Source: an uncultured Lachnospiraceae bacterium (GTDB taxonomy: Bacteria > Bacillota > Clostridia > Lachnospirales > Lachnospiraceae). Taken from it: a stretch of DNA of 32,797 nt. The position numbers and the translations under genes were made by a program. The stretch covers positions 1 through 32,797 of the forward strand of contig CAMOYN010000002.1 of assembly GCA_946630035.1 (NCBI GenBank), written 5' to 3'. Below, in pieces: positions 18,666 through 32,797 of this stretch (position 1 is the first letter of the stretch; each line of letters starts with the position of its first letter). Under the pieces are notes generated by a model. The model searched no databases, was not told the origin of the DNA, and worked only from the letters and a program-made list of their open reading frames with translations.

Positions 18666-19856
18666 CTATTCCACGGAAATAATATCCGGGAGAAGATAGT
18701 AGAACGACGGATAGGAGGAGCGTTCATTCTCTAAAAAACCACCGTTCAGATCTATCGTAACGGAGGAATCCGTCGCACTGACCGCCGTCACGTCGGTTTT
18801 AAAGGCCTGACGTTTATTCCCCGTTTTAAACTGTCCGATCGCCTCGTCGATCTTCTCTTTCGTTCCGGGAGCCGCCAGCGCCGCATTCAGGTCCATCACC
18901 TCGACCCACCCATATTCAAATCCGGCGGATACATCGTTCCCATGAACATTCCCTTTTACCACACTTTCAATGGTCTCCCGGTTCAGCACCGCTTCCACCG
19001 CGGAGACAATATAAGGCGTCCAGTTGATTCTTGCCGCAATCAGCGCAGATCGCGGGGCTACTCCCAGCAGGCTCTGATTATAGGCGACATGGTACACATT
19101 ATGCGTCAGAGATGCCTCCTCGCAGGCCAGCACCGGACCGATGGTATCGGTGTGCTGCGATATAATCACACAGCCTTCCTGAATTAGTTCCTCCGTCATC
19201 CGCTTTTCCAGGGAAAAGCTGCCCCAGGTCCCGGTATAGCGCACGCGCATAAAGGCTTCCGGAGCCACGGAACGAGCCCCCAGGAGAAAGGCTGTATATC
19301 CGGAAATTACTTCCGGATCCGGGAAGGCAGCCACATAGCCGATGCACGCCTCCTCCGGAGTCAGGAGGCGACGATCGATCAGCTGCCGCAGAACACTGCC
19401 CGCAGCAATACCACTGACATACCGGGCCTGATAGGCTTCTCCCTTAAATGTGTGATAGTTTTCCGGGACACTCTCCTCACTCATATCCTTCCATGAGGCC
19501 TGGCAGAACTGCACCTCCGGATATTCCTTTGCCACCTCCAGGACCTGAGGGCTGTATCCATTCAGAAAAATGATACTGCAGCCTTTATTCACCAGATCTC
19601 TCAGAGGTTCTTCGGTTTCGTCATCCAGGACATTGCTGTGGCTTAGGATTTCAATGCGATCGTCATAAGTCTTTTTCAGCTCATCCGCTGCCAGTGAGAA
19701 ATTATAGGTGTACGAGGTACTTTCATCACTGTCATATACAAAACCCACATATATCTTTTCCTGCTCTACATTGGGATTAATCCACGTCTTGTAGACGTAA
19801 ACCAGGATCACTGCCAGCAGGCAGGTAGAAATCGTGGCAGCATATACACGCTTCAT
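18666..19856 (-). CDS. BMP-family (PnrA-like) solute-binding protein with N-terminal membrane anchor
   Basis: 396 residues. An N-terminal hydrophobic helix (about residues 6-24) precedes an extracellular periplasmic-binding fold: IYVGFVYDSDES, GCSIIFLNGYSPQVLEVAKEYPEVQF, GYVAAFPDPEVISGYTAFLLGARSV and GCVIISQHTDTIGPV. These match the BMP family (PF02608), whose studied members bind nucleosides or purines. It has no lipobox (the cysteine follows IST), and the helix lacks a clear signal-peptidase site, so it is probably membrane-tethered. Its ATG overlaps the stop of the HD-GYP gene (ATGA) behind GGGGAGGAG, showing translational coupling. No ABC permease or ATPase is nearby, so a sensing role is inferred. 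The ligand is unknown. Confidence 0.87.
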   Translation of the reverse strand: MKRVYAATISTCLLAVILVYVYKTWINPNVEQEKIYVGFVYDSDESTSYTYNFSLAADELKKTYDDRIEILSHSNVLDDETEEPLRDLVNKGCSIIFLNGYSPQVLEVAKEYPEVQFCQASWKDMSEESVPENYHTFKGEAYQARYVSGIAAGSVLRQLIDRRLLTPEEACIGYVAAFPDPEVISGYTAFLLGARSVAPEAFMRVRYTGTWGSFSLEKRMTEELIQEGCVIISQHTDTIGPVLACEEASLTHNVYHVAYNQSLLGVAPRSALIAARINWTPYIVSAVEAVLNRETIESVVKGNVHGNDVSAGFEYGWVEVMDLNAALAAPGTKEKIDEAIGQFKTGNKRQAFKTDVTAVSATDSSVTIDLNGGFLENERSSYPSFYYLLPDIISVE

Positions 19857-22800
19857 TTCTTCTCCTCCCCTCCGTCCGGTCCGGAAGCGGCTTCTGGCTC
19901 CGGTGAGTCTTTTTTCATGGCAGCTTCCTGGATTTTACGATCCTCCTCTACACGTCTGGCCACTTCTTCCTTTGTCTTCTGGTCCGCCTCACTGATCTCA
20001 GCTGCCTTCTCGCTGTAAAGTGCCTCCAGATCAATGATTCCCTTATCCACCAGGCGCAGGAAGGCATCCAGTGCGTTCGGATCAAACTGAGTCCCACGGC
20101 CACGTTTCATCTCATTCATAACATAATCCGTATCCATCTGATTCCGGTATACTCGATTGGATGTCATGGCGTCGAAGGCATCCGCCACACCGATGATACG
20201 GCCGATCAGCGGAATATCCTCCCCTTTCAGTCCCAGGGGATATCCCCGCCCGTCATAGCGTTCATGATGGAAGTTGGCTCCTTCCGCCACGTTTTCCACC
20301 AGTGTAAAATCCTTCAGGATATCTGCGCCCCGGGTAACATGAGACTTCATCTCCGCATACTCATCGTTGGTCAGACGGCCCACTTTGTTAAGGACATTAT
20401 CCCGGATACCGATTTTACCGATATCATGCATCTGGGCAGCCCTGCGCAGATTTTCCAGTCTTTTATCCCGCTGCCAGCCTTTGTAGCAGCCCATTTCCTT
20501 CGCAATCATGACCGAGTATTCGGCCACCCGCTTTGAGTGCTGACTGGTGCGTACATCCTTCGCGTCGACGGCATTGGCGATGGCCACCACAGTCTCATTG
20601 GCCATTTCCAGTTTCACTTTCTGTTTGTTGATCTGTCTCTGAACAAGCAGCCAGGTGATCCAGACGAAAAATGCTACAAGCACTGTCATCAGATAAACGG
20701 CAAAGCTTCTCTGTTCATACAGTTCACTCTTTTTAATCAGAGGCAGCTGTAATTCTTCCAGTATATTATCACCGGTACTGTCAAACACCGCCAGACGCAG
20801 CGTATACTGGCCGGAGGGAAGATTCGTATAGATCAGATGGCCCAGTTTGCTGTGGGGCATTAAGGTCCAGTTCTGGTCATATCCCTCCAGGATATATCCC
20901 ACATTCGGGTCCTGAATCGTATAATTCAGGATCTCCGGTTCAATCTCCAGCCGGTTCACCCCCTGATCCACCACGATGGACCCAGTCTGTTTCAGAGACT
21001 GCAGAGTATTATCAAAGTACAGTGAAGCGATGTGAATCCGGTAGGAATAGGTAAGCTGATTGTAACGGCGGGTATCAATAATATACATACCAGTATCACA
21101 GGGCAGGAACAGATCCCCCTGATCATCCAGGTAATTCCAGGAATTCGCCGTCAGAGCGGTGCTCAGCCCGCTCCGGGTATCCAGGAGCCGGAAGGGCATG
21201 TTTTCGCGATCTGCCACCAGATCATCCCGTTCCACGATATATACACCCGCACTCGACATGATCATCAGTATATCTCCATCCAGAGAACGGATATCGTAGT
21301 TGTTGTAGTAAGGGAAGTTCTTAATCGGCCGTGTTGTGTTATCTTCTTCCAGATAGCAGAGGCCGTTACTGGTAACCAGCATGACTCCGTCGGATTTCGG
21401 ATCCTTAATGGTACGGAGAATCACGCCGCTGGTCAGACCATTCGCCTGGGTGATCGTCTCCCGGATGGTTCCATCTTCAATGATCGCGATTCCGCCTCCG
21501 TCCGTACCGGCCAGGACCGTTCCGTCGCTTCTCTCGGTAATCGACAGAATCATCGTACTGGTGAGGCCGTCATGACTGCCGATCGTATGAACAACTTCGT
21601 GGTTACGGATAAATACGACCCCCGTGTCTGTTCCGGCTGCCAGTGTACCATCCGAAAGTTCCGTCGCCAGGCGGGCACGGTTTCCGATGCCGTGACTTTG
21701 CTCATCGTACTGCCAGATCTGCCCGTCGGGTGAAACTTCCAGGAGACCGGTACCATAGGTACAGATCCACAGGTCATCCTGACTGTCCACACAGAGACAA
21801 CGAATCCGCACATTCTTCAGCCGGGCTGTCAGCTCATTCTCTATCTGATTCCGGCAGGAAGAATCTACAATATCCAGACCATTATCCGTTCCGATATAAT
21901 AACAGTTCTGCCACCGGGTAATCGCATTCACCACACATCGTTCCATGCCAACCGTTCCATATACATCCTTAAAGGCGGAGTTTGCCATCCGCAGCAGTCC
22001 CAGACGGGTCGAAGTAAACCAGAGATTTCCCTGATAATCCTGCAGCATCTTATATATGGAAGCATTAAATTCATTGGTGTTGACCAGATGACACACTTTA
22101 TCCTTTCCCATATAGGCAACACAGTTATCGGAAGTGATAAAAAGAACGCCATCCTCCAGATAGTAGAGACGGTTTAAACGGGTAACCCCATCCAGGGTAA
22201 TCGTTTCTTTCAGTTCGAAACCGTTGTCCGCAATATCGTACCGATAGATATGATTGGTGGAGGTTCCCGCCATCAGGCTTCCATCCGGCGCGAAGGTACA
22301 GCAGTTAAACACTTCATCCACACCGGAAAGACGCAGGGAAGAAAGGATCCGCCCTTCCCGTAAGAGAAAGAGCCGTCCGTCCGATGTCAGAGCCGCGACA
22401 TGCCCCTGATCGTCTGCCGCGATGCACTCCGCATAGTTAATCTCACGAATGGTATTGAAAACTCTCAGGCCGTTATTCATGGCCAGGATCTGCATGCTGC
22501 TGGTCGTCCCGATATAGTAGTATCCGTCCGAGGACTGAATGATGGAACGGACAGAGTTCGAGGGCAGACCGGAATTCTGATCAATCACATTTACGATCTT
22601 CTCATTGATAGCAATGGAAAGGCCGTTATCATTGGTTCCGATCCAGAGCCGTCCTTCCTCATCCACATACAGGCAGTTTACATTTCGCACGGAATCATAA
22701 TTGCTGATCCACCGAAACTCCAGTCCATTGTAGCGATACAGTCCGGCATAGGTTCCGATCCACAGAACTCCGTCATTGGTCTGTACGATATCATTCGCCT

Positions 22801-23512
22801 GACCGCAGGGCAGTCCGTTATTTCCGGAATACACGGTCTTTACATAATCGTTGTAATCCGTGAAATCAATATCTGCGGCCTGCACAGACATCGTTCCGAC
22901 CCCCAGTCCCAGCAGAAGGATCAGGAAACATCCGGCCTTCGTCCGCCGGACAGCCACCAGCTCGTCTTCCTCGGTCAGCCTCCGGAAGATCTTCACTATA
23001 ATGAAAAGTATCAGCACCAGAAGCACCTTATCTGAAAACTCCACCAGGAGCTGTCCCACGATGGCACACAGCATAAAGGACCAGCCCAGACTCTGGAAGT
23101 ACTTGATGATGGCGTCTCCCCAGATATTATTGGTATAGCCCTCGTTGACAATCCAGTTCAGAGGAAGAGAAATCGCCAGGGCTATAAGCATCACTACCAG
23201 GGCGGTTCTCATGGCCTCATACAGATTATCCATCCATTGGTATATGCCGGCAAATCCCATTATCACGCCTATACCGATACTTGTCAGAGAATATGCCAGT
23301 GCCATTGCATTCATGTGCCCGTAGAGCAGATTACTTGTCAGCCCCAGCAGCGCCCCGCAGCTCGGGCCAGCCATATAACCATATAACATCGTCCCCAGGG
23401 AATCCATCCAGAACGGCCACTGAAAATGAGCTGCCAGAACCCTTCCGCCCACATTAAGTCCGAGACACAACAAGGCAAACAAAACGATCTGGTACGTCTT
23501 CCACTTTCTCAT
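19853..23512 (-). CDS. Fusion sensor: ECF-S-like membrane domain, Reg_prop beta-propellers, Y_Y_Y, HD-GYP phosphodiesterase
   Basis: About 1219 residues. Residues ~1-177 form a multi-helix membrane domain (PFWMDSLGTMLYGYMAGPSCGALLGLTSNLLYG) resembling ECF-transporter S components. A second hydrophobic stretch at ~188-214 ends MSVQAADID and looks like a signal peptide kept inside the fusion. About 14 Reg_prop blades (DGVLWIGTYAGLYRYN, EEGRLWIGTNDNGL, SQDDLWICTYGTGL, SDGTLAAGTDTG) follow, enough for two seven-bladed propellers, then a Y_Y_Y domain (VGYILEGYDQNWTLMP) and a TM helix. The HD-GYP domain (MHDIGKIGI, HHERYDGRGYP, DAFDAMTSNRVYR) looks complete, predicting c-di-GMP hydrolysis. The tail is acidic. 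ATG 23512 is supported by GGGGAGG; the track uses a GTG upstream. It is the middle gene between two binding proteins. Confidence 0.9.
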   Translation of the reverse strand: MRKWKTYQIVLFALLCLGLNVGGRVLAAHFQWPFWMDSLGTMLYGYMAGPSCGALLGLTSNLLYGHMNAMALAYSLTSIGIGVIMGFAGIYQWMDNLYEAMRTALVVMLIALAISLPLNWIVNEGYTNNIWGDAIIKYFQSLGWSFMLCAIVGQLLVEFSDKVLLVLILFIIVKIFRRLTEEDELVAVRRTKAGCFLILLLGLGVGTMSVQAADIDFTDYNDYVKTVYSGNNGLPCGQANDIVQTNDGVLWIGTYAGLYRYNGLEFRWISNYDSVRNVNCLYVDEEGRLWIGTNDNGLSIAINEKIVNVIDQNSGLPSNSVRSIIQSSDGYYYIGTTSSMQILAMNNGLRVFNTIREINYAECIAADDQGHVAALTSDGRLFLLREGRILSSLRLSGVDEVFNCCTFAPDGSLMAGTSTNHIYRYDIADNGFELKETITLDGVTRLNRLYYLEDGVLFITSDNCVAYMGKDKVCHLVNTNEFNASIYKMLQDYQGNLWFTSTRLGLLRMANSAFKDVYGTVGMERCVVNAITRWQNCYYIGTDNGLDIVDSSCRNQIENELTARLKNVRIRCLCVDSQDDLWICTYGTGLLEVSPDGQIWQYDEQSHGIGNRARLATELSDGTLAAGTDTGVVFIRNHEVVHTIGSHDGLTSTMILSITERSDGTVLAGTDGGGIAIIEDGTIRETITQANGLTSGVILRTIKDPKSDGVMLVTSNGLCYLEEDNTTRPIKNFPYYNNYDIRSLDGDILMIMSSAGVYIVERDDLVADRENMPFRLLDTRSGLSTALTANSWNYLDDQGDLFLPCDTGMYIIDTRRYNQLTYSYRIHIASLYFDNTLQSLKQTGSIVVDQGVNRLEIEPEILNYTIQDPNVGYILEGYDQNWTLMPHSKLGHLIYTNLPSGQYTLRLAVFDSTGDNILEELQLPLIKKSELYEQRSFAVYLMTVLVAFFVWITWLLVQRQINKQKVKLEMANETVVAIANAVDAKDVRTSQHSKRVAEYSVMIAKEMGCYKGWQRDKRLENLRRAAQMHDIGKIGIRDNVLNKVGRLTNDEYAEMKSHVTRGADILKDFTLVENVAEGANFHHERYDGRGYPLGLKGEDIPLIGRIIGVADAFDAMTSNRVYRNQMDTDYVMNEMKRGRGTQFDPNALDAFLRLVDKGIIDLEALYSEKAAEISEADQKTKEEVARRVEEDRKIQEAAMKKDSPEPEAASGPDGGEEKK

Positions 23513-23527
23513 CCACAGCACCTCCCC

Positions 23528-27759: not shown

Positions 27760-29409
27760 CTACCGGATGGTGAGTTCCACCGTCTTTTTTCCGGACTTGT
27801 ACTGCGCAGAGGGAAGAGCATAGACCATAATCTTTACGGTGCCCTTCTTTTTGGCCGTGACGACGCCTTTCCCGGAGACAGATGCCATTTCCGGGTTGGA
27901 GGATTCGTAGATCAGCTGCCCGGTACCGGAGGTTCTTACGGCGTTCAGCGAAATCTTCGCTCCTTTTTTCATCTCCCGTCTGCTTCTGACACTGATCTTC
28001 TGCGCTGTCTTTCCGGCTTTTACACCAAACCCCTTTACCAGAGCATTGTAAAGACGGTAGGTATATTCTCCTGCGGAGATTTTGGACTGTACGGTGATTC
28101 CCTGCCAGCTGCCGCCGCTTTGAATAAACGACTGTCCGCTCTGTATGACGGCGGGTCTGGCACCTTTGTCCACGACGTCCTGCAGCTCGAAGGGAATAAA
28201 ATACCGGCCCGAAGGCGCCTTTGCCGATATAAGAATACTGAAGGAAGCGCCTTCGGGAATGCCGATCTGTTTCCCCAGATCCATGCGGCTGTATCCGGCC
28301 TGCTTTTTCGTGAAGGTCTTGTTATACAGTCGGACTCCGGAGACCGGGGTGCTGCCGTCATTTGCTGCGTAGATCTGAATGTTCACCCGACAGTTATCCT
28401 CCGGCGTAAAGGTCATGACCTGATCCAGCAGAATGTCCGACCTGGCTGTGAAACAGTTCGCTCCAGCCGTTTCGCTGCCGCTCATCAGGATATAGTCGCC
28501 GATTCCGGTACCATCGTACTGATAGATTTCTTTTCCGCTGCTTTTCTGCCCGACGAAGCTCACCGCCTGGGAGATGCAGGGGCTGTAGTACGAGACGTAC
28601 ATATAGCCGTCTCCGTGAAGATCCGTTCCGTAGGAGTCCTTCACAATCCAGGCTCCGGGGCCTGCCGGCTTGTCTTCGGACCGGAAATCCCGGAAGGTAT
28701 CGTCCCAGCCCACAATCGTCACGGCATGGTCCGCAAGTTCTTCTTCCGAGTAATAGGTTTTCGTCTGGTTCGGAATCCTTGTCCCGAAGACCTTTTCCCA
28801 ACTGTAGAAATCGGGGAAACAGATCTTCGAGGCGACGGCTCCGTTTTTCATGATCAGCTGCTTGATCCGACGGTACGCAGCCCGGTCGTATTTTTCCACA
28901 GTATTGTTTACCTGGACAAAGACCGCCTGCTTTAGTTCATACTGAGACTTCGTCATCATTTTTTGCGTGATGTACTTTCCCCCGGGCATACTGTCACCGC
29001 TGAAGAGAGAATAGGGCATGGTTTTTTCCGTGACAGCCCCGTAACCTCTGGCCAGTTCCGCAGCGGCCGTATAGAAATTCGTCGCATCCCCGCTGTGGAA
29101 ATAGGCATCCTTCCCGGCGTATTTGCTGACAGCTTCGCTGCTCTTCGGATTCAGCATAAAACAAGCCATGTGCGCCTCCGACAGGTCAATCTCCGGCCCG
29201 GCGATCCCCTGGGTGATCAGATTGGATTCCATAGAGGCCAGAGTGGCAAAAGCCCAGCAGAAAGTACGTTCCGATCCCTGGTCCTTGACCCCGGTGACAC
29301 GGCCCTGTTTTCTCAGATCATATTTTGACGGCAGAGATGCTGCCCGGCTGGGCAGTGCGGCAGACAGGAGCAGCGCCGCCGAAAGAATCAGTACCGAAAA
29401 TTTCTTCAT
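27760..29409 (-). CDS. Secreted papain-like (C1A) cysteine protease with C-terminal Ig-like domain
   Basis: 549 residues. A signal peptide ends near SRAAS. The C1A domain starts PSKYDLRKQGRVTGVKDQGSERTFCWAFATLASMES, giving oxyanion Gln44 and nucleophile Cys51. The histidine is H228 in DHAVTIVGWDD. The third catalytic position, normally Asn in WIVKNSWG, is Asp258 here (WIVKDSYGTD). A beta-rich segment (~285-450) resembles the lectin-like domain seen in clostridial relatives. The last ~80 residues (SGTGQLIYESSNPEMASVSGKGVVTAKKKGTVKI) form a Big_2-type Ig-like domain. ATG 29409 follows AGGAGG by eight bases. It is 12 bases after the LRR gene in the same operon. It has no sortase motif or S-layer domain, so it is probably released or loosely wall-bound. 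Confidence 0.92.
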   Translation of the reverse strand: MKKFSVLILSAALLLSAALPSRAASLPSKYDLRKQGRVTGVKDQGSERTFCWAFATLASMESNLITQGIAGPEIDLSEAHMACFMLNPKSSEAVSKYAGKDAYFHSGDATNFYTAAAELARGYGAVTEKTMPYSLFSGDSMPGGKYITQKMMTKSQYELKQAVFVQVNNTVEKYDRAAYRRIKQLIMKNGAVASKICFPDFYSWEKVFGTRIPNQTKTYYSEEELADHAVTIVGWDDTFRDFRSEDKPAGPGAWIVKDSYGTDLHGDGYMYVSYYSPCISQAVSFVGQKSSGKEIYQYDGTGIGDYILMSGSETAGANCFTARSDILLDQVMTFTPEDNCRVNIQIYAANDGSTPVSGVRLYNKTFTKKQAGYSRMDLGKQIGIPEGASFSILISAKAPSGRYFIPFELQDVVDKGARPAVIQSGQSFIQSGGSWQGITVQSKISAGEYTYRLYNALVKGFGVKAGKTAQKISVRSRREMKKGAKISLNAVRTSGTGQLIYESSNPEMASVSGKGVVTAKKKGTVKIMVYALPSAQYKSGKKTVELTIR

Positions 29410-29421
29410 AGTTGTCTCCTC

Positions 29422-30663
29422 CTATCGGATTACCATTGTTTTCACGGCGGACCATTTGCCATACACGGTTCTCCCGGCTACCCTGGTAAAGGGACGAATC
29501 TTCCAGGCAGTTGTCTGTCCTTTTTTCACGCCGGCCAGTTTTTTACTGGTCCATTGGACGGTACCGCTGTTTTTAATCGAAGCCGCTTTCTTATAGCTGC
29601 CCGTTTTCCCCATTCGCCAGAAAATCTGATATCCGCCGGCATGTTTCACTTTCTTCCATTGCAGGCGGACCTTTCTCCCTCTGAGCGCCTCGGTTTTCTT
29701 CCATTCCGTCCCGAACTGCCTGGCGCTGATCTCACTGACAAGTGTCAGGTCATTGTCTGAGGCGTATTCTGCCGCTGCGGAGAAAGCACCGGCATATATT
29801 ACAAAGCCGGGAACCTTTGTGTATATGATCTCCTGTGTTTTCGGATGGATTCTGTGGTTGATTCCGAAAGCCTCCGTGCCGATCGCCTCTACCGCAGCCG
29901 GAATTGAAATCTGTTGCAGACCCGTATTGGCAAAGGCTCCGTCCCCGATCTCCGTGATCGTATCCGGCAGCTTTACCGCCGTGATCTTTTTGTTCCCGCT
30001 GAATGCACCGTTGCAGATTTCCGTGACCGGATAAATTTTATTATCTATGCGGACATTCTTTCTGATCCCGATGGTTCCCGACAGTTTGCCATCCCCCAGA
30101 ATCACACTCGCCGTCTCCTGGCCATCGTACACATAATACAGGATGCCATTTACGGTTTTTTCGATGTGATCATCCAACGCCCGGATTGACAGGATCTCCG
30201 TAGTGGCACAGAAATAAATGTCATCGATCCCGGCTGCCGGTCTGCCCTCCGAATCCAGAGGGTTCCCCTCTTCATCTATTCTGTACAGACCAAAAAGATA
30301 GGTGCACGTCTGGCCAATGCCCCCATCGGGATCCAAGAGCCCGGTGTTATCCACCCATCGATACATTATACCGAACCCATATTTCCCGATACTCTTCCAG
30401 TTCTTATCATAGAAATCGTTGAAGCGGTACGTAAATTTCAGAGTTTTCCCATGGTCGGTGACAGTGATTCTTTCCCCCTGGTTGAACTCCGTCGGGATGT
30501 ACATGACATAATAATACACTACTTCCTCGACCGCGGGCCTGTCCTCAAAGCGAATCCCATAATCCGCCGAAGCCGCCGAAGCCTGTTCCGGCCTGACAAA
30601 GCCCGCGAGGATAATGCTCAATACAAACAGCAGAAATAGTGTTTTCCATTTTTTCTCTCTCAT
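29422..30663 (-). CDS. Secreted BspA-type leucine-rich repeat protein with C-terminal Fn3-like domain
   Basis: 413 residues from the ATG chosen by AGGAGG six bases upstream; the track start adds 12 codons. A signal peptide (MREKKWKTLFLLFVLSIILAGFV ... ASAASA) is followed by ~170 residues without a recognised domain (YYYVMYIPTEFNQGERITVTDHGKTLKFTYRF). LRR_5 repeats then begin TEICNGAFSGNKKITAVKLPDTITEIGDGAFANTGLQQISIP. The C-terminal ~90 residues (RKVRLQWKKVKHAGGYQIFWRMGKTGSYKKAA ... TTAWKIRPFTRVAGRTVYGKWS) are an Fn3-like module common in Lachnospiraceae surface proteins. It is the first gene of a two-gene operon with the cysteine protease. Adhesion or substrate binding is plausible but not shown. 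Confidence 0.88.
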   Translation of the reverse strand: MREKKWKTLFLLFVLSIILAGFVRPEQASAASADYGIRFEDRPAVEEVVYYYVMYIPTEFNQGERITVTDHGKTLKFTYRFNDFYDKNWKSIGKYGFGIMYRWVDNTGLLDPDGGIGQTCTYLFGLYRIDEEGNPLDSEGRPAAGIDDIYFCATTEILSIRALDDHIEKTVNGILYYVYDGQETASVILGDGKLSGTIGIRKNVRIDNKIYPVTEICNGAFSGNKKITAVKLPDTITEIGDGAFANTGLQQISIPAAVEAIGTEAFGINHRIHPKTQEIIYTKVPGFVIYAGAFSAAAEYASDNDLTLVSEISARQFGTEWKKTEALRGRKVRLQWKKVKHAGGYQIFWRMGKTGSYKKAASIKNSGTVQWTSKKLAGVKKGQTTAWKIRPFTRVAGRTVYGKWSAVKTMVIR

Positions 30664-30728
30664 ATCAAACCTCCTCGTACGTGATCCATGGCCCGGCAAC
30701 CGATGTTCCCGGGTAACCAGATATTATT

Positions 30729-30918: not shown

Positions 30919-31410
30919 ATGAAGAACAAACAGACGCAATTCCTGACCCAGGCGGCGATGATCGCTGCCCTCTATGTCGTCATCACCTGGCTTTTCGCCG
31001 CCTTTTCCTTCGGCGAGGTGCAGGTGAGGCTCTCGGAAGCCCTCACGATCCTTCCGCTCTTTACGCCGGCGGCCGTTCCCGGGCTCTTCGTGGGGTGTAT
31101 CATAGGCAATATCCTCGGCGGTGCAGTCCTGCCGGATATCATCTTTGGCAGCCTTGCCACCCTGATCGGAGCCTTCTTCACGAGGAAGCTTTCGGACTCC
31201 AATCCTTTCCTCGGACCGATCCCACCGATCGTCGCCAACACCCTGATCGTACCCTTCGTTCTCAAGTATGCCTACAGCGTACCGCTCCCGATTCCTTTTA
31301 TGATGCTCACCGTGGGCATCGGCGAGGTGATTTCCTGCGGAGTGCTCGGTATGGCGCTGTATTTCACATTGAGCCGCAGCCAGAGCGTGATCTTCAACGC
31401 TCAGAGCTGA
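30919..31410 (+). CDS. queT: QueT family ECF-transporter S component (queuosine precursor uptake)
   Basis: 163 residues with five or six predicted membrane helices. The N-terminal TQAAMIAALYVVITWLFAAFSFGEVQVRLSEALTILPLFTPAAVPGLFVGCIIGNILGG is typical of the QueT family (COG4708). It is the substrate-binding membrane subunit of an energy-coupling-factor transporter; the shared EcfA/EcfT module is not in this window. The probable preQ1 riboswitch in its leader supports preQ1 or a related queuosine precursor as substrate and predicts repression when preQ1 is plentiful. ATG 30919 follows AAGGAG by ten bases. It is monocistronic, followed by two terminators. Confidence 0.95.
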   Translation: MKNKQTQFLTQAAMIAALYVVITWLFAAFSFGEVQVRLSEALTILPLFTPAAVPGLFVGCIIGNILGGAVLPDIIFGSLATLIGAFFTRKLSDSNPFLGPIPPIVANTLIVPFVLKYAYSVPLPIPFMMLTVGIGEVISCGVLGMALYFTLSRSQSVIFNAQS

Positions 31411-31438: not shown

Positions 31439-31468
31439 CGGCCTGCTCCGATGAGCAGGCCGCTTTTT
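31439..31468 (+). terminator. Terminator 1 after queT
   Basis: A perfect 10-bp stem CGGCCTGCTC / GAGCAGGCCG with a CGAT loop is followed by C and five T residues, 28 bases after the queT stop. Confidence 0.93.
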
Positions 31469-31474
31469 ATGATT

Positions 31475-31508
31475 AAAGACCGCAGGAAATATAGACTGCG
31501 GTCTTTTT
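31475..31508 (+). terminator. Terminator 2 after queT
   Basis: A perfect 11-bp stem AAAGACCGCAG / CTGCGGTCTTT has a 10-base loop; its 3' arm runs into a five-T tract. It begins six bases after terminator 1, giving a tandem stop. Confidence 0.88.
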
Positions 31509-31974
31509 CGCTGAATATAAATCTAGAAGGACATACGCAGAGGGGATCTTTTCGGCGAGTGGAGATTTAATCTCCTCGCGCTAAATAAGCAGAGAAAATT
31601 TTTCATAGGCTATACGCTAATTTAATTTGTCAAAAATTGGATAATCGGGTGTGGTAAGGAATGGCCAACCATTTCGGATTTCAGATTGTGCAATTTCCGA
31701 CTGCACAATTCCATTTTCCGCCTTCTCCCGGCAGCTGATCCGGAACGCATTCGCTAAAATAAAAGATGATTGTTTCCGGTAGATACACAATTTCACCTTT
31801 CCCGTTTCTCTCATTCATCTGGGATAGCCATAAAATTTTTCTGACATTTCTGCATAAAGCTGCCGTTATCCCCTCGAGGTCATGTCCGTGGGTATTACCA
31901 AGAACTGTCAGTCAATATCAGAGCGGGCAACCGCAGAGCATTTCCATCCGTAAAACATAATCGGGTAATCCCAC
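31509..31974. other. Gap of about 470 bases with no recognisable gene
   Basis: No ORF here has both a ribosome-binding site and a recognisable product. Two small ORFs (65 aa minus, 64 aa plus) overlap and look random. The stretch is A/T-richer than the genes to its left. It contains an imperfect inverted repeat at 31555-31579 (GGAGATT / AATCTCC inside GCGA / TCGC) and an inverted repeat TTGTGCA / TGCACAA near 31685-31710. It could be decayed accessory DNA. Confidence 0.5.
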
Positions 31975-32003
31975 TTGACACTCTATCTTCATCAAACTAT
32001 AAT
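31975..32003 (+). promoter_or_regulatory. Perfect consensus promoter of the repeat-protein gene
   Basis: TTGACA and TATAAT, both perfect, are separated by exactly 17 bases. Transcription would start near 32010, about 50 bases before the ATG. Confidence 0.92.
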
Positions 32004-32061: not shown

Positions 32062-32797
32062 ATGAAAACACGTGTAAAAAGCTCCGTTATTAGTATTCTT
32101 CTCCTGGCATTTGCCGCTATCATTCTATCCGGAACTGTATATGCATCCGATCATAATCATGATTGGTCTCTTGATGATACGTCCTACCATTCCATTTCCG
32201 ACACACAGCACGAAATCATTTATACCTATCGTTGTGTTGAGTGTGACGCAGAAATGACGGAAAAGAAGGTCGAAAATCATGACCTGCAACTATGGGAAGA
32301 AGAATATAATTCCGTCTCTGACACACAGCATGAAATAGTAGCCACATACTATTGCAGATTATGTGACGCGAAGGTAGTGAAGAAATCATACAAAGCTCAT
32401 AGCCTGATTTTTTCCTACGAATATGGCGTAGATTATGAAAAATCATCTCCCACGAATCATAAGGCAATATATCATTATGAATGTGAGCAATGTAATGCCA
32501 TCATTGATACGCAGAAAATGGAAAATCACGTCTGGGTAAAAGACGATGAATACATAGAGGAAGGGGACTCCTTCCATAATCTGGTTACACTTTATATATG
32601 TGACAAATGTGAGGAAGAGAAGGAAGAAAAGAAGCCCCAGGAACACACCTGGAAGGCATATGATGAAGAAGGAACCTATAAAAGCATTTCTTCCAAGGAG
32701 CATACTTCGGTGGTATATTACGAATGCACCAAATGTGAAACAACAAAAAAAGAAGTTGTCAAGCAGGAACACACATTCGACAAATACGGAGAGTGTA
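32062..32797 (+). CDS. Secreted protein with five H-x7-C-x2-C-x11-H repeats (3' end outside the window)
   Basis: 245 codons are visible; the ORF is open at the window edge and so is missing from the ORF track. A signal peptide (MKTRVKSSVISILLLAFAAIILSGTVYAS) is followed by five repeats of 39-43 residues. Each has a His exactly 8 residues before the first Cys of a CxxC and another His exactly 12 after the second (C58/C61, C98/C101, C141/C144, C180/C183, C222/C225). This spacing suggests four-ligand zinc or other metal sites in an extracellular protein. The segments between are acidic and Tyr-rich, and SDTQHEI occurs twice. The repeats loosely resemble the C-x2-C...HTW repeats of clostridial surface proteins. 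AAAGGGA lies 12 bases before ATG 32062. The DNA is distinctly A/T-richer than the rest. No function is recognised. Confidence 0.82.
   Translation, partial: MKTRVKSSVISILLLAFAAIILSGTVYASDHNHDWSLDDTSYHSISDTQHEIIYTYRCVECDAEMTEKKVENHDLQLWEEEYNSVSDTQHEIVATYYCRLCDAKVVKKSYKAHSLIFSYEYGVDYEKSSPTNHKAIYHYECEQCNAIIDTQKMENHVWVKDDEYIEEGDSFHNLVTLYICDKCEEEKEEKKPQEHTWKAYDEEGTYKSISSKEHTSVVYYECTKCETTKKEVVKQEHTFDKYGEC

Follow-up and report, generated by a model that had tools for sequence, protein, structure and literature searches.

At the very end of the window, by which we mean the whole 32,797-nucleotide stretch analysed here (contig CAMOYN010000002.1 of assembly GCA_946630035.1, from an uncultured Lachnospiraceae bacterium), lies a gene for a protein of tandem repeats, each with two histidines and two cysteines at fixed distances, and the question it raises is what these residues do and with which partners. 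An earlier note on this DNA took them for metal ligands kept by selection, and suggested that such a protein could buffer zinc or stiffen a surface stalk. We consider it likely that the gene encodes a secreted, probably surface-exposed rod of ~40-residue beta units, stapled to one another by structural metal, most likely Zn2+.

The repeat gene and its surroundings

The gene and its upstream region comprise the following features.
31975..32003 (+): candidate promoter TTGACA-17-TATAAT, 12/12 consensus positions, by consensus match only
32062-32796 (+): open reading frame of the repeat protein, 245 aa in translation up to the contig end
32062..32145 (+): signal-peptide-like N-terminus, residues 1-28, from sequence and hydropathy
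32152..32160 (+): H31-x-H33, putative N-terminal cap ligand and first shared His, from sequence and first-unit statistics
32209..32280 (+): repeat core 1, residues 50-73, HEIIYTYRCVECDAEMTEKKVENH, from the translation, as for the next four
32329..32400 (+): repeat core 2, residues 90-113
32458..32529 (+): repeat core 3, residues 133-156
32575..32646 (+): repeat core 4, residues 172-195
32701..32772 (+): repeat core 5, residues 214-237
32770..32796 (+): probable beginning of a sixth unit, HTFDKYGEC, truncated where the contig stops, assigned by likeness

The contig end at 32797 falls inside the repeat gene, so that the open reading frame is cut by the assembly and the window would hold the N-terminal part of the protein. 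A search of the rest of the genome found no second copy of the gene and, with the contig-end sequence absent from every other contig, nothing that would extend the contig. The partial sixth unit looks like short terminal units such as HTFENGVCIECG. Residues 1-28, MKTRVKSSVISILLLAFAAIILSGTVYA-S, combine a basic start, a hydrophobic core and a VYA-S end at which signal-peptide cleavage may be placed, and the protein is predicted to be secreted. The candidate promoter lies ~60 bases 5' of the gene. Because the G+C content of the repeat gene is 39% (GC3 40%) compared to 50-58% (GC3 60-77%) in its neighbours, a horizontal origin or relaxed codon use is suggested.

The repeat gene is preceded by a gene for a QueT-like ECF transporter (30919-31410), which is closed by a strong terminator-like hairpin (31439-31462, +); a second hairpin with a T run is found near 31480-31510. 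Annotation by eye also gives two adjacent genes for secreted proteins, 27760-29409 (-) and 29422-30699 (-), namely a papain-like (C1) peptidase that ends in an Ig-like tail and a surface protein of LRR/Fn3 type. A 1222-aa protein (19853-23521, -), also annotated by eye, has a membrane start, contains beta-propeller repeats of the two-component type and carries an HD-GYP-like domain at its C-terminus; its gene has substrate-binding-type lipoprotein genes on both sides.

In the translation, H-x7-C-x2-C-x11-H blocks occur exactly five times, starting at residues 50, 90, 133, 172 and 214, compared to a mean of 0.0017 and a maximum of 1 in 200,000 shuffles of the mature sequence. The invariant His-Cys-Cys-His spacing reported in the earlier note is thus exact, and its two further observations, a repeat period of 39-43 and divergent sequence between the ligands, hold equally well, with measured pitches of 40, 43, 39 and 42. 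Only H, Y(-2), C, C and H are invariant within the 24-residue core; because the other 20 positions, none of them ligands, are only 10-40% identical between repeats, the fixed spacing is not simply a product of recent duplication, and its conservation is positional. The final His of a block is at the same time the first His of the following unit (H33, 73, 113, 156, 195, 237). The possibility of a multihaem cytochrome, with paired CXXCH, was ruled out by the five motifs themselves, which read CVECD, CRLCD, CEQCN, CDKCE and CTKCE.

Relatives of the repeat and catalogued families

A search with the whole protein found no relatives in the genome_contigs, viral_contigs, phages and plasmids collections, and a two-unit tandem HCCH pattern with a pitch of 43 gave 7 and 1 matches in the genome and viral collections, with no real relative among them; the three in-frame genome matches were His-rich metal proteins or low-complexity frames, and hence were set aside. 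Profile searching for the repeat in surface proteins, an approach proposed in the earlier note, did return relatives. One clear relative emerged from related genomes, an 1814-aa open reading frame from the same order (G121:C54), which is the closest full-length relative and is complete, with a signal peptide, about 35-40 units, an acidic/Pro-rich stalk and a C-terminal membrane helix with a basic tail. It mixes His-type units like those of the window (e.g. TKHVTIKNYECELCHGKLDQEKTEEEH) with commoner H...PTCTEDGYxxYxCxxC...GH units. At E 0.001 the pure His subtype was found only in G121, alongside a weak, chance-like match of 48 aa, in order and phylum samples of 392 and 398 genomes. In other genomes of the family, the weak matches of profile A1 consisted largely of unrelated metal proteins, L020 alone being a repeat protein.

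The profile of the common form, A3, matches 56/145 related genomes and also three further proteins of the window's own genome, in which the repeat class stands beside a transglutaminase-like domain (C234), SH3 and peptidoglycan-binding domains (C68) and LRR/Fn3 domains (C51); arrays reach about 50 units per protein in the class. In the secreted transglutaminase-like protein (L081, G000:C234:1-3462), ten class units precede the catalytic domain. The window repeats are a rare His-rich subtype of this common secreted-protein repeat of the clade, H...C-x9-C-x2-C-x~12-H. Both forms have the same strand order, ligand order, boundary His and array-end rules, but the common repeat mostly has Cys at -10 as its upstream ligand and reaches its end His 12-15 residues after CxxC, whereas in the window type the upstream ligand is His at -8 without exception and the corresponding interval is 11 residues.

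The class is a widespread family of bacterial surface-protein repeats that is uncatalogued in Pfam/NCBIfam for the proteins tested. In Pfam, searched with the window protein and the class members tested, the repeat itself reaches no cutoff (best score PF23674 RYYR-CCHC, 20.4 bits versus a cutoff of 27), and NCBIfam, searched with the window and G121 proteins, gave none at cutoff (best score 19.7 versus 40). Scores below these curated cutoffs argue against membership of a Pfam/NCBIfam zinc ribbon or zinc finger family. Classical C2H2 zinc fingers and zinc ribbons have the CxxC knuckle and His ligands in common with the window repeats, but the latter are modelled without a helix and appear to share ligands between units. 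A search of solved structures with the window protein or the G121 protein found nothing, and Foldseek/VIA returned nothing significant for the 43-aa unit, which is no surprise with so small a sheet; the ZBDs of IgAse, discussed below, may also be missing from the resolved structures of the library. An adhesin family sought in the Pfam, NCBIfam and solved-structure searches gave no match either, so that the disulfide-forming adhesin repeat which the earlier note had envisaged as a counter-explanation did not materialise.

Predicted fold, array ends and the grouping of ligands

AlphaFold2, run with an alignment of only the window's own five repeats, folds one unit with confidence (pLDDT 92.5), with strands at 3-12, 17-26 and 32-40; the whole 217 aa without an alignment gave a pLDDT of 32. 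The modelled unit is a three-stranded antiparallel up-and-down sheet, as predicted for the IgAse ZBDs. Arguing from its topology, H1 and C26/C29 would be at one end of the sheet, with H18 and H41 at the other; a single strand separates H18 from C26, and another C29 from H41. The two ends are about 8 strand residues from each other. Because H18/H41 and C26/C29 are at opposite ends of the sheet, the H18-C26-C29-H41 set of one repeat cannot form one metal site on this model. With end-to-end stacking, C26 and C29 of unit n+1 would instead meet H18 and H41 of unit n, H41 doubling as H1 of unit n+1.

This arrangement bears on how arrays should end, and 377 units parsed from 44 proteins allowed the family to be surveyed. 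Full-length last units retain the first His and CxxC, but only 17% of them have the upstream ligand, versus 91% of middle units (p 2e-18), and only 20% the end His, versus 97% (p 4e-24), while a conserved Gly that is not a ligand shows no change (93% versus 88%). These p-values treat units as independent, which is not fully true, although a check limited to one array per genome removes most of the concern. In that check, covering 25 genomes, the upstream ligand is found in 4/25 last versus 226/253 other units, the end His in 4/25 versus 242/253, and the Gly in 23/25 versus 221/253. Since first units mostly keep both the upstream ligand (78%) and the end His (92%), the loss in last units is not edge decay. 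Of the first units, 43% have an additional His/Cys two residues ahead of their first His, versus 4% of middle units (p 7e-8), and where a unit has no upstream ligand the next unit has this additional residue in 10/25 cases versus 2/244. The co-loss at array ends and the extra ligands at array starts together support metal sites straddling unit boundaries, and show, at the level of sequence, a dependence of the upstream His/Cys and end His on the CxxC of the next unit. The window follows the same family rules, starting with H31-x-H33 and having the respective His in each unit, such that five sites would be ligand-complete with H31 as cap.

These results speak against the idea that each repeat is self-contained and zinc-finger-like, its own H-C-C-H binding one zinc. 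It would explain why the four residues keep exact spacing in 5/5 repeats, and CxxC with two His is a common zinc set, but it appears unlikely, since the model separates the first His and CxxC from the other two His, last units that keep CxxC and lose both other ligands would be left with orphan cysteines, and the extra His/Cys often found at array starts has no need in such a scheme. The metal idea of the earlier note is therefore right in kind and wrong in grouping: selection for metal coordination is supported, whereas the single-repeat site is contradicted by both the unit model and the array-end statistics.

Extracellular CxxC pairs can also be oxidised and, the protein being predicted to be secreted, the cysteines might form disulfides while the histidines serve something else. 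We find this improbable, as both His positions of a site equal the Cys in conservation and vary together with the latter, and as variants with 3Cys+1His and 2Cys+2His interchange freely. Gut anaerobes live in a reducing setting, which also speaks against disulfides. The IgA peptidase IgAse, moreover, has no disulfides in its experimental structures, in which its ZBDs are not included, or in models (PMC12237041).

Proposed metal staples between units

In the arrangement we favour, with metal shared between neighbouring three-stranded up-and-down beta sheets, each metal would have as ligands the upstream His of unit n (which is the first His in the earlier note), the His shared by n and n+1, and the two Cys of the CxxC of n+1. 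The sites would be H31/H33/C58/C61, H50/H73/C98/C101, H90/H113/C141/C144, H133/H156/C180/C183 and H172/H195/C222/C225, with a sixth formed by H214/H237 and the Cys of unit six, partly past the contig end. The fixed spacings would then represent the lengths of strands 2 and 3, setting the distance between successive metals, and the variable part of the unit would be strand 1 and its loop. The outcome would be a stiff, protease-resistant, disulfide-free rod or spacer, whose role, we infer, would be to carry or display another domain. Of the surface stalk suggested in the earlier note, the extended surface rod is supported, and its stiffness is presumed.

The other function suggested there, an extracellular zinc store or buffer in which the repeats provide capacity and not structure, could draw on the about six predicted sites in the 217 residues of the mature sequence and on its net acidic character (48 D/E versus 24 K/R). 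It seems very improbable, however, since low-affinity storage needs no fixed geometry, array-end caps or inter-unit pairing, and since the repeats of relatives adjoin transglutaminase, SH3, peptidoglycan-binding, LRR and Fn3 domains, as would fit a spacer; nor was a zinc-uptake gene seen when the window's open reading frames were annotated by eye.

For structural staples between units, the only described relative found in the literature on extracellular zinc repeats is the pair of predicted zinc-binding domains, ZBD1/ZBD2, of the Thomasclavelia ramosa IgA peptidase IgAse (M64) (PMC12237041). These are predicted three-stranded up-and-down subdomains with no Dali homologues, and their putative zinc sites, for which the paper itself asks for experimental validation, lie at subdomain interfaces and consist of 2His+2Cys or 3Cys+1His (PMC12237041). 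The window units resemble them in predicted fold, predicted ligand sets and presumed elongated form, and IgAse is a secreted, cell-wall-anchored gut Firmicute protein, as the window protein is predicted to be secreted. They differ in that IgAse has two to three units per domain, accessory to a peptidase and with sites that are predicted only, whereas in the window five uniform His-type units and the first part of a sixth follow immediately on the signal peptide.

On our best reading, what is new here is a His-type variant of a widespread uncatalogued class, of which the predicted IgAse ZBDs would be the sole described members found. More than one third of the related genomes sampled contain the class, whose units adjoin peptidases, transglutaminases and cell-wall domains but are named by neither Pfam nor NCBIfam in the proteins searched. 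The array-end rule supplies a direct argument from sequence for zinc staples between units, and turns a 2025 structural prediction for a single IgA peptidase into a family-wide testable hypothesis. More tentatively, the class may be a large unnamed family of extracellular rods of gut Clostridia in which every joint is a two-unit metal staple, with length set by the strand 2/3 spacing, stiffness dependent on environmental zinc, and a surface architecture sensitive to zinc withholding by the host.

The window type is linked to IgAse only via the commoner C-type units. Profiles A1 and A3 align in hhalign with a probability of 67 and E 5e-5, over only 16 columns; the window-type profile A2 does not list PDB chain 9qa6_A, which carries the IgAse sequence, whereas the class profile A3 matches it in three stretches (E 0.008).
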